DNA of 64,000 bases from Pirellulales bacterium (lineage in GTDB: Bacteria > Planctomycetota > Planctomycetia > Pirellulales > JAEUIK01): the NCBI GenBank assembly GCA_019636335.1, contig JAHBXR010000009.1, forward strand, positions 1 to 64,000, read 5' to 3'. The notes beneath the pieces were generated by a model. That model saw only the letters and a program-made list of their open reading frames with translations, did no database searches and was not told the DNA's origin. The stretch's first letter is position 1. Every line of letters begins with the position of its first letter. The translations under genes were made by a program, and so were the position numbers. Positions 53,481 to 56,925 of this stretch are shown in pieces.

Positions 53481-54206
53481 GTGGAGACGAGACTGCGCGT
53501 CGAGATCCAGCCGCAACCCGACGACACGACATGCGGCCCTACGTGTCTCGACGCGATCTATCGCTACTACGGCGATCCGCTGCCGCTCGAGCAGGTGATC
53601 GCCGAAGTTCCCAACTTCGAGGAAGGGGGCACGCTTGCCGTCTGGCTCGGGGCGCACGCCTTGCGCCGCGGCTACTCGGCCAAAATCTTCACCTACAACC
53701 TGCAGATGTTCGACCCGACGTGGTTTGCTGCCGGGGCGCTGGACATCGCCGGACGGCTGCGGGCACAGGCCGCCGCCAAGTCGTCGGCCAAGCTGCAACT
53801 GGCTACGCAGGGCTATCTCGAGTTCCTCGAACTCGGAGGCGAAATCCGCTTTCAAGATCTCACCAAGGCGCTGATTCGCAAGTATCTCGACCGCTCGATC
53901 CCGATACTCACCGGGCTCACCTCGACCTACTTGTACTCCTCGGCGCGCGAAATCGGCGAGACGAATGTTCCCGACGATGTGCGCGGTGAGCCCGCGGGCC
54001 ACTTCGTGGTGCTGTGCGGCTACGAGCGCGACTCGCGGCAGGTGATGGTGGCCGACCCCTACTCGTCGAACCCTCATTCCGAGCTGCATCTGTACGAGAT
54101 CAACATCGATCGGGTGATCTGCGCCATCCTGCTCGGAATCGTCACCTACGACGCCAACCTCTTGATTATCGAACCCAAACAGGCACGGCCGCCATGCCCA
54201 CGCTGA
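53481..54206 (+). CDS. C39-like (papain-fold) cysteine peptidase family protein
   Basis: A 241-residue protein with the C39-type order of active-site residues: Gln11 or Gln12 before Cys18 in PDDTTCGPTCLDAIYRYYG, His174 in PAGHFVVLCGY, and Asp192 in VMVADPYSS. No signal peptide or ABC transporter domain, so it is cytoplasmic, unlike bacteriocin-processing C39 exporters. In proteobacteria a similar C39 domain is fused to a GNAT domain next to RLAN/RimK-type ligases (from my memory of annotations); here only the C39 part is present. Start is GTG at 53481, the first possible in this frame. It overlaps the next gene by 13 bases. Confidence 0.82.
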   Translation: METRLRVEIQPQPDDTTCGPTCLDAIYRYYGDPLPLEQVIAEVPNFEEGGTLAVWLGAHALRRGYSAKIFTYNLQMFDPTWFAAGALDIAGRLRAQAAAKSSAKLQLATQGYLEFLELGGEIRFQDLTKALIRKYLDRSIPILTGLTSTYLYSSAREIGETNVPDDVRGEPAGHFVVLCGYERDSRQVMVADPYSSNPHSELHLYEINIDRVICAILLGIVTYDANLLIIEPKQARPPCPR

Positions 54207-55663
54207 TCGTCGTCAACAACGCCAAGGAATGGCCCTTCGACATCCCTGGGGTCCAGGTGGTCGAAGCCCGCGCGTATCTCACGCAACCGCAATTCGGCGA
54301 GATGCGCAGCGTCAAGCTGTTCAACCTTTGCCGCTCGTACCGTTACCAGAGCACGGGCTACTACGTCACGCTGCTGGCCACGGCGCGCGGTCACAAGCCG
54401 CTCCCCAACATCCAAACGATCCAGGACATGAAGTCGCAGACGGTCGTGCGCTTCGTCTCCGAGGATCTCGAAGAGCTGATCCAGTCGAGCTTGCAGCCGA
54501 TCCACTCCGATCAGTTCACGCTGTCGATCTACTTCGGCCGCAACCTGGCGCGCCGCTACGATCGACTGTGCCTGCACTTGTTCAACCTGTTTCAGGCGCC
54601 GCTCCTGCGGGCGCACTTCGTTCGCAATGGCAAATGGCATCTGCGCACCGTGCGGACGATTTCGCTGGGCGATATTCCCGAAGCGCACGGGCCTTTCGTG
54701 CTCGACGTGGCGACGCAGTATTTTGCCGGCCGCCGCGGCGCTGTGCGCAAGCGCGTGACCCCCAAGTACGACATGGCCATCCTCTTCAACCACGAGGAGG
54801 AGCTGGCGCCGTCCGACGAGAAGGCCATCGAGCGGTTCGAGCGGGCGGGAGAGCAGTTGGGCATCCGCACCGAATTGATCGGTCGCGACGATTTCGCCCG
54901 GCTCGCCGAGTTCGACGCCCTATTCATCCGCGAGACGACCAACGTCAACCACTACACCTATCGCTTCTCGCGCCGCGCGGCGATCGAAGGATTGGTCACG
55001 GTCGACGATCCCGAGTCGATCATCCGCTGCTCGAACAAGGTCTACCTGGCCGAGCTTTTGAACCGCTACAAGGTGCCCATCCCACGCACGATGCTGGTGC
55101 ATCGCGATAACGTCGAGCAGGTGGCTCGCGAGTTGGGCTTCCCCTGTATTCTCAAGCAGCCCGACTCCGCCTTCTCGCAAGGGGTGGTCAAGGTCGAAGA
55201 TGCCACCGAGCTGGCCACGACCGTCGAGCAGATGCTGGCCAAGAGCGACATGCTCATCGCGCAAGAGTTTCTGCCCACCGCCTTCGACTGGCGAATCGGC
55301 ATCTTCGATCGCCAACCCCTCTTCGCCTGCAAGTACCACATGGTCCCCAAGCATTGGCAAATCGCGCAAAAAGACGGCACGGGCAAGCGGCGTTACGGCC
55401 GGGCCGAGACGCTGCCCGTCGAGCTCGCCCCGCGCCACGTGGTGCGCACGGCGCTCCGCGCGGCGAACCTCATCGGCGACAGCCTGTATGGCGTCGACGT
55501 GAAGCAGCTCGACCGCAAGTGCTATGTGATCGAAGTCAACGACAATCCCAATATCGACGCTGGCGTCGAAGACCGCATCCTGCGCGAGGAACTGTATCGC
55601 CGCATCATGTCGGTCTTTCTCGACCGGCTCGACCGCCGCAAAGCAGGCATTGAGGCCGCATGA
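54194..55663 (+). CDS. RimK-like ATP-grasp ligase with RLAN N-terminal domain
   Basis: A 489-residue amide-bond ligase. The N-terminal region (about 1-190; VNNAKEWPFDIPGVQVVEAR, FNLCRSYRYQSTGYYVTLLA, STLSIYFGRNLA-like stretch) corresponds to the RLAN domain found on one branch of RimK-like proteins. The ATP-grasp core follows (about 210-470): PRTMLVHR, FPCILKQPDSAFSQGV, the DWRIGIFD segment and the Mg-binding VIEVNDNPNID. E. coli RimK adds glutamates to ribosomal protein S6, but RLAN-type relatives have unknown substrates. ATG at 54194 lies inside the C39 gene (13-base overlap) and its stop overlaps the next start (ATGA at 55660-55663). Confidence 0.9.
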   Translation: MPTLIVVNNAKEWPFDIPGVQVVEARAYLTQPQFGEMRSVKLFNLCRSYRYQSTGYYVTLLATARGHKPLPNIQTIQDMKSQTVVRFVSEDLEELIQSSLQPIHSDQFTLSIYFGRNLARRYDRLCLHLFNLFQAPLLRAHFVRNGKWHLRTVRTISLGDIPEAHGPFVLDVATQYFAGRRGAVRKRVTPKYDMAILFNHEEELAPSDEKAIERFERAGEQLGIRTELIGRDDFARLAEFDALFIRETTNVNHYTYRFSRRAAIEGLVTVDDPESIIRCSNKVYLAELLNRYKVPIPRTMLVHRDNVEQVARELGFPCILKQPDSAFSQGVVKVEDATELATTVEQMLAKSDMLIAQEFLPTAFDWRIGIFDRQPLFACKYHMVPKHWQIAQKDGTGKRRYGRAETLPVELAPRHVVRTALRAANLIGDSLYGVDVKQLDRKCYVIEVNDNPNIDAGVEDRILREELYRRIMSVFLDRLDRRKAGIEAA

Positions 55664-56925
55664 CCATCGCCGCTCCCCTCTCCCTCTTCACCGCCTTCGG
55701 CATCGAGCTCGAGTACATGATCGTCGACGCGCGCACGCTCGACGTGCGCCCCATCGCCGACGAGTTGATCCGCGCCGCCACGGGGGAGATCACCTCCGAG
55801 ACCGATCAAGGGGGAATCTCCTGGTCGAACGAGCTGGTGCTGCACGTTGTCGAGCTGAAGACGACCGACCCCGCCACGTCGCTCGACGGCTGGGGGGATC
55901 AGTTCGCCCGCCACGTCACGCGCATGAACGGGCTGCTCGCGCCGCTGGGCGCCCGGCTGATGCCGACGGCGATGCACCCCTGGATGGATCCCGCGCGCGA
56001 GATGCGGCTCTGGCCGCACGACTACGGCGATGTCTACGCCGCGTTCGATCGCATCTTCGGTTGCCAGGGACACGGCTGGGCCAACCTGCAGAGCATGCAC
56101 ATCAACCTGCCGTTCAGCGGCGACGAGGAGTTCGGTAAGCTGCACGCGGCGATCCGCCTGCTGCTGCCGATTTTGCCGGCACTGGCGGCCAGCAGCCCCC
56201 TCGTCGAACGCCGCGCGACGGGCAAGCTCGACACGCGGCTGGACGTCTACCGCACGAACTCGCGGCGGATCCCGTCGATCACCGGCCACGTGGTGCCCGA
56301 GGCGGTCTTCACGCAGCGCGACTACGAAGAAAAGATCCTCGAGCGCATCTACCGCGATATCGCCCCTCTCGATCCGGACGAAACGCTGCAAGACGAGTGG
56401 CTGAACGCCCGGGGCGCGATCGCAAGATTCTGCCGCGGCACGATCGAGATCCGCGTCTTGGACGTGCAGGAATGCCCGAAAGCGGATCTGGCAATTGCCA
56501 CGGCCACCGTCGCAGTGCTCAAAGCCCTCGTCGAGGAACGCTGGAGCGATTTAGCCAGCCAACAAAAGGCCCCGACCGAACCGCTGGCCGAGATCTTGCA
56601 GGCCACGACCATCGCCGCCGATCAGGCCGTGATCGAGAACGAAGAGTATCTGCAACTCTTCAGCTACCCGGGCAAGCGCGCCACCGCCAGGGAGTTGTGG
56701 GCGCACCTGATCGAATCGCTGCCGGAACTCTCCGGCAGCAATGCACGGCCAGAGACGCGCAAGGCGCTGGAGGTGATTCAGAAAGAAGGGCCGCTGGCGC
56801 GGCGGATCTTGCGCGCGCTAGGCGTCAGCAACTTGCACCAGTCGAGTGAGTTTTCAACCCACCAACTCGCCGAAGTCTACGCCCGCTTGTGCGACTCGCT
56901 CACCAGGAACGAACTGCTGAGCTAG
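55660..56925 (+). CDS. Glutamate-cysteine ligase family 2 (GCS2/YbdK-like) ligase
   Basis: A 421-residue carboxylate-amine ligase of the GCS2 family. FGIELEYMIVD (about 13-23) contains the metal/ATP-binding glutamates, followed by NELVLHVVELKT, and the substrate-region GTIEIRVLDVQECPKADLA with the conserved Arg and Asp. Family members join glutamate to an amine, classically cysteine (GshA, EgtA) or unknown amines (YbdK). With the RimK-like ligase and C39 protein in one overlapping operon, it more likely makes a gamma-glutamyl compound specific to this system than bulk glutathione; no gshB is present. Start ATG at 55660 overlaps the upstream stop. Confidence 0.9.
   Translation: MTIAAPLSLFTAFGIELEYMIVDARTLDVRPIADELIRAATGEITSETDQGGISWSNELVLHVVELKTTDPATSLDGWGDQFARHVTRMNGLLAPLGARLMPTAMHPWMDPAREMRLWPHDYGDVYAAFDRIFGCQGHGWANLQSMHINLPFSGDEEFGKLHAAIRLLLPILPALAASSPLVERRATGKLDTRLDVYRTNSRRIPSITGHVVPEAVFTQRDYEEKILERIYRDIAPLDPDETLQDEWLNARGAIARFCRGTIEIRVLDVQECPKADLAIATATVAVLKALVEERWSDLASQQKAPTEPLAEILQATTIAADQAVIENEEYLQLFSYPGKRATARELWAHLIESLPELSGSNARPETRKALEVIQKEGPLARRILRALGVSNLHQSSEFSTHQLAEVYARLCDSLTRNELLS

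Follow-up and report, generated by a model that had tools for sequence, protein, structure and literature searches.

A conserved C39, RLAN-RimK and GCS2 gene triad as the candidate core of a gamma-glutamyl compound pathway in about 14 bacterial phyla

The 64,000-nucleotide stretch of Pirellulales DNA analysed here, referred to as the window, carries an operon-like run of three plus-strand genes, overlapping by 13 and 4 bases, that places a papain-fold cysteine enzyme beside two ligases of different families (Table 1). What these enzymes might produce together, and whether their association extends beyond this genome, is the question raised by the locus. The earlier note had described the two overlaps, an intact Cys18/His174/Asp192 set in a cytoplasmic-type C39 protein, an RLAN-RimK ligase with the NDNPN Mg motif and a GCS2-family ligase, and all of these observations held when the coordinates, Pfam matches and family alignments were examined. 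Each of the three proteins exceeds its curated Pfam cut-off in a profile search, and inspection by eye revealed no apparent signal peptide or membrane segment in any of them. The operon is present in one copy in the window's genome; downstream of it lie a 3-keto-disaccharide hydrolase gene and ilvD.

Table 1. Features of the operon and its upstream neighbours in the window, and reading frames of fused ligases at other planctomycete loci
Feature	Coordinates	Strand	Description
Cys/Met-metabolism PLP enzyme gene	50411-51634	-	PF01053; upstream of operon, opposite strand
Fic-domain gene	51609-53006	-	PF02661; upstream of operon, opposite strand
Operon	53481-56925	+	three genes
C39-like papain-fold cysteine enzyme	53481..54206	+	241 aa, GTG start; PF13529 (Peptidase_C39_2) 7.4e-11
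Cys18 codon of C39-like gene	53532-53534	+	invariant in family
His174 codon of C39-like gene	54000-54002	+	invariant in family
Asp192 codon of C39-like gene	54054-54056	+	invariant in family
RLAN-RimK ATP-grasp ligase	54194..55663	+	489 aa; PF14401 2.7e-47, PF08443 7.2e-10; start overlaps C39 gene by 13 bases
RLAN domain, N-terminal part of ligase	54266..54700	+	PF14401 profile positions 1-147; conserved stretch with N44, Y57, R65
RimK-type ATP-grasp domain	55031..55558	+	PF08443, residues 280-455; E-V-N-D-N-P-N metal site
GCS2-family carboxylate-amine ligase	55660..56925	+	421 aa; PF04107 4.4e-28; 4-base overlap (ATGA) with RLAN-RimK
Fused RLAN-RimK-GCS2 frame	L107:2387-5473		
Fused RLAN-RimK-GCS2 frame	L108:2554-5619		
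Fused RLAN-RimK-GCS2 frame	L109:2385-5357		
Fused RLAN-RimK-GCS2 frame	L111:1-3006		

By score (43.2 bits for PF13529 against a cut-off of 24) and by its intact residues, the first protein belongs to the C39-like papain-fold peptidase family and is a putative peptidase. In an alignment of 122 family members no ungapped row departs from Gln12 (oxyanion), Cys18, His174 and Asp192, and no inactive paralogue was seen, answering a doubt that the earlier note had itself raised. The AlphaFold2 model (pLDDT 92.5) matches C39 peptidase domains at Z 15.8; phytochelatin synthase Alr0975 (Z 14-14.8 over 156-161 residues, with only 10-12% identity in the structural alignments) and pseudomurein endoisopeptidase (Z 14.8), enzymes for a gamma-glutamyl peptide or isopeptide bond, are tied with them. 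Such matches, for this model and for that of the ATP-grasp ligase, indicate a probable fold and not function or specificity.

The second protein is placed in the RLAN family by a PF14401 score of 160.6 bits (gathering cut-off 25); E447, N449, N451 and P452 are invariant in 154 of 154 aligned rows, as are the three conserved RLAN-domain residues listed in Table 1. It scores below the cut-offs of the models for RimK alpha-L-glutamate ligase (TIGR00768, 64.1 bits against 143.4) and LysX of lysine biosynthesis (TIGR02144, 71.5 against 275.6), and its match to the NCBI glutathione-synthetase model is weak (36 of 408 bits). PDB matches of its AlphaFold2 model (pLDDT 90.8) are confined to residues 189-485, where the RimK half resembles LysX, ArgX and RimK structures (Z about 25-26.5) and, less well, glutathione synthetase (Z 21.2).

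The third protein is a clear member of the GCS2 superfamily (PF04107, 98.9 bits against a gathering cut-off of 21), with E16, E18, H106, N149 and E263 invariant in 128 aligned rows and R265 kept in 127 of them. It is distinct from canonical GCS2 enzymes: its best scores against NCBI curated models are 58.8 bits where 332 are required and, for the YbdK-type model TIGR02050, 56.8 where 176.4 are, and the cyanobacterial-type GshA model TIGR02048 gives 30.5 bits against a cut-off of 249.05. In a FastTree tree, for which the program issued a warning on long branches, the operon GCS2 proteins form their own clade on a very long branch away from the YbdK-type GCS2 of the same genomes, so that grouping with true GshA, which the earlier note had named as grounds for abandoning its reading, was not seen. 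Comparison with the plant GCL pocket at residue level gave weak alignments, and because the protein is so divergent, glutamate is proposed as its donor from family membership. At one locus (L052:6462-7776) the GCS2 gene lies in two overlapping frames, apparently through a frameshift or an assembly error.

The association of the three genes is not peculiar to the window. A scan of named genomes with the RLAN profile yielded 80 loci; pooled with the Planctomycetota loci, and with a few genomes counted twice (L042/L136, for instance), these include 121 in which C39, RLAN-RimK and GCS2 lie on one strand, in that order without a single violation. With 121 loci and no exception, the fixed order is far beyond chance, and the expectation in the earlier note that the genes be neighbours in related genomes was borne out. 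The triad loci span about 14 phyla, the 80 loci of the scan coming from Planctomycetota, Tectimicrobiota, Verrucomicrobiota, Pseudomonadota, Bacteroidota, Balneolota, Ignavibacteria, Acidobacteriota, Thermodesulfobacteriota, Myxococcota, Nitrospirota, Sumerlaeota, Spirochaetota and Omnitrophota. Many carriers are metagenome bins, and cultured isolates from four phyla are also included, among them members of Blastopirellula, Thiobacillus, Nitrosomonas, Pontibacter and Marivirga. No viral carrier of the operon was found.

Co-inheritance is evident within the window's phylum, where 392 genomes contain RLAN in 93 cases, the operon-type GCS2 in 70, the C39 protein in 64 and all three together in 62. 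RLAN and GCS2 co-occur in 67 genomes and C39 and GCS2 in 62, with Fisher p below 1e-47 for each gene pair (1e-48 to 1e-60); the exceptions, three genomes with GCS2 but no RLAN and two with C39 but no GCS2, may be contig-edge cases. Distance matrices are correlated between RLAN and GCS2 (r = 0.85, shuffled maximum 0.22) and between C39 and RLAN (r = 0.66), with a shuffled maximum below 0.27 in either comparison. The C39 gene was found beside 121 of 134 GCS2-bearing RLAN loci, and at L132, L148, L192 and L198, which have RLAN-RimK and GCS2, the upstream sequence is available and has no C39 gene; C39 is therefore not strictly required there. The genes form one unit, with fixed order, co-inheritance and intact active sites.

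A fourth gene often follows. A match to PF05013, the N-formylglutamate amidohydrolase (FGase) family, accompanies 79 of the 121 triads on the same strand, 3' of GCS2, the position being clear in 75, and E17, H18, H132, N76-R77 and E208, putative metal and substrate residues, are invariant. The FGase gene is missing from the window and its nearest relatives, and no PF05013 gene was found anywhere in the window's genome. Since C39 was not found at 13 loci and FGase is missing from about one third of triads, not every step is obligatory. The coupling of the two ligases is tight and extends to fusion: in four planctomycete loci, which form one supported clade, RLAN-RimK and GCS2 are a single protein of about 1000 residues (Table 1). 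Neither the FGase partner nor the fusion had figured in the earlier note. The fusions have an unusually long RLAN domain, of about 190 residues in L107, and L109 keeps a C39 gene upstream.

Beyond these partners, the flanking genes are unrelated from locus to locus, and for that reason we rejected the idea that the operon belongs to a larger cluster that would include a transporter, regulator or carrier; none of these, and no recurring metal or redox gene, was found conserved in the flanks. A precursor-type ORF of 20-95 aa, sought upstream and downstream, was conserved only among near relatives. The random flanks and the lack of a widely conserved small ORF favour a self-contained metabolite pathway over a co-encoded peptide or carrier substrate. 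What does recur in the flanks is chiefly an MFS gene, upstream in 3 of 55, and a gene fusing GNAT and carbon-nitrogen-hydrolase (nitrilase) domains, which lies beside RLAN in five loci (L083:7568-9169, L089, L090, L106 and L156), in L083 directly 3' of GCS2.

Part of this association has been glimpsed before. The Pfam RLAN entry PF14401 and Iyer et al. 2009 are said to list GNAT-papain fusions, M20 peptidases and GCS2 as neighbours of RLAN, and an association of RLAN, GCS2 and papain-fold proteins was reportedly noted in the latter. The claim in the earlier note that the system is undescribed is for that reason only partly right, although no paper on the operon emerged from literature text searches. 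The present analysis contributes the phylum-wide statistics and shows that the order is fixed, that FGase is a frequent partner and that the two ligases can be fused; Iyer et al. 2009 may hold some of these findings. RLAN-RimK operons with GNAT-DUF3335 (C39) genes share the ligase family and a papain-fold partner with the triad, but have that partner as a fusion with an acetyltransferase and lack GCS2, whereas here C39 stands alone, as a single-domain protein without a GNAT match in the window, and is followed by the ligase and by GCS2 with or without FGase. Loci of the GNAT-DUF3335 type also occur in the planctomycete sample (L076, L077, L079-L081 and L089), and in the tree the operon-type ligases are mostly separate from them, with a few GNAT-type rows interspersed. 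In L112-L118 the RLAN domain and the RimK ATP-grasp are encoded by separate but neighbouring frames, and most of these loci have a GNAT-DUF3335-type gene close by.

How could such enzymes act together? We infer a reaction order, a gamma linkage, a small-molecule product and roles for the two hydrolase-type enzymes as follows. The GCS2-type ligase would form an amide between an amine and the glutamate gamma-carboxyl, giving a gamma-glutamyl compound; the RLAN-RimK ligase would add the next amino acid, following the logic of GshA-then-GshB or of GshF; and the papain-fold enzyme, with the Zn amidohydrolase where present, would cleave the glutamyl amide, transfer it or recycle it. From the recurrence of the gene set in the same order across at least 12 phyla, its probable role is to build and trim a small molecule containing glutamate. 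That a single cytoplasmic pathway for a gamma-glutamyl compound, conserved widely and with FGase as an optional part, has the triad as its core seems to us an even call; the more specific proposal of a previously unrecognised pathway in about 14 phyla, in which two coupled ligases build a gamma-glutamyl peptide that the papain-fold enzyme and the Zn amidohydrolase remodel, is offered with somewhat less than even confidence. The earlier interpretation, in which a gamma-glutamyl amine is made, extended and trimmed, is as a whole partly supported, its chemistry being conjectural. No product of the operon was found in the literature searched.

Counting against a small-molecule product, LysX, ArgX and RimK act on the C-terminal glutamate of a protein, and with these as the closest solved relatives of the ligase a protein target fits as well. 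The main rival is for this reason a tagging system, in which the two ligases would load a protein with glutamate or a glutamyl compound and C39 and FGase would remove it. RimK modifies S6, LysX and ArgX modify LysW, and a pair of ligases offset by a pair of hydrolase-type enzymes resembles the machinery of a reversible mark, with a precedent in the RimK-RimB ligase-protease pair (PMC11957791, as far as its description in PMC12239564 goes). However, no carrier or small-protein gene that might serve as substrate is conserved beside the operon, and GCS2 enzymes are known as a class for small-molecule substrates; a protein mark is unlikely, if still a serious contender. The ligase differs from LysX, ArgX and RimK by its additional N-terminal RLAN domain. 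Pontibacter and similar carriers are not known to be methylotrophs, and polyglutamylation of methylofuran, a known RimK-like system (PMC8141765), was set aside on that account. A phytochelatin-like pathway, in which the ligases make a gamma-glutamyl tripeptide whose units are strung together by a papain-fold transpeptidase for metal or stress handling, draws on the tied match to Alr0975 and on the placement of phytochelatin synthase (C83) among relatives of the C39 group (PMC10318531). The likeness is one of fold at low identity, however, the flanks hold no recurring metal or redox gene, and cysteine in the peptide is an assumption of the reading, so we regard it as improbable.

A more familiar explanation is synthesis of glutathione or gamma-glutamylcysteine by divergent enzymes. 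GshA-GshB and the bifunctional GshF likewise pair, and sometimes fuse, a glutamate ligase with an ATP-grasp ligase, and the window's genome has the operon's GCS2 as its only GCS2 gene and no more than a weak GSH-S_ATP match (48.6 bits). Yet the operon contains another ATP-grasp family with an RLAN domain, besides papain-fold and FGase enzymes, and its arrangement is not that of GshA beside GshB: the RLAN-RimK neighbour of GCS2 has no PF02955 (GshB) match at E 1 or better. The papain-fold gene at most GCS2-bearing loci would be left unexplained, and carriers in Thiobacillus, Nitrosomonas and Pontibacter possess a separate, strong GSH-S_ATP match of 180-249 bits. Because of these coexisting matches and the divergence of GCS2, with its own clade far from the YbdK type, glutathione synthesis is very improbable and was rejected, in support of the view in the earlier note that the unit is more than glutathione synthesis needs. 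Maturation of a ribosomal peptide of the graspetide type, suggested by an ATP-grasp ligase beside a C39-type peptidase, a remover of leader peptides in other systems, is hardly credible and largely refuted by the lack of a precursor gene beside the ligase that is conserved beyond near relatives; nor is a transporter conserved, and GCS2 is not known from such clusters.

Regardless of which product is made, planctomycetes, nitrifiers and Bacteroidota alike keep this fixed set of three to four enzymes in one order, and such a set must be useful to its carriers. The unit is self-contained and cultured isolates carry it, so that knockout combined with metabolomics could reveal a widespread and overlooked small molecule or protein mark.
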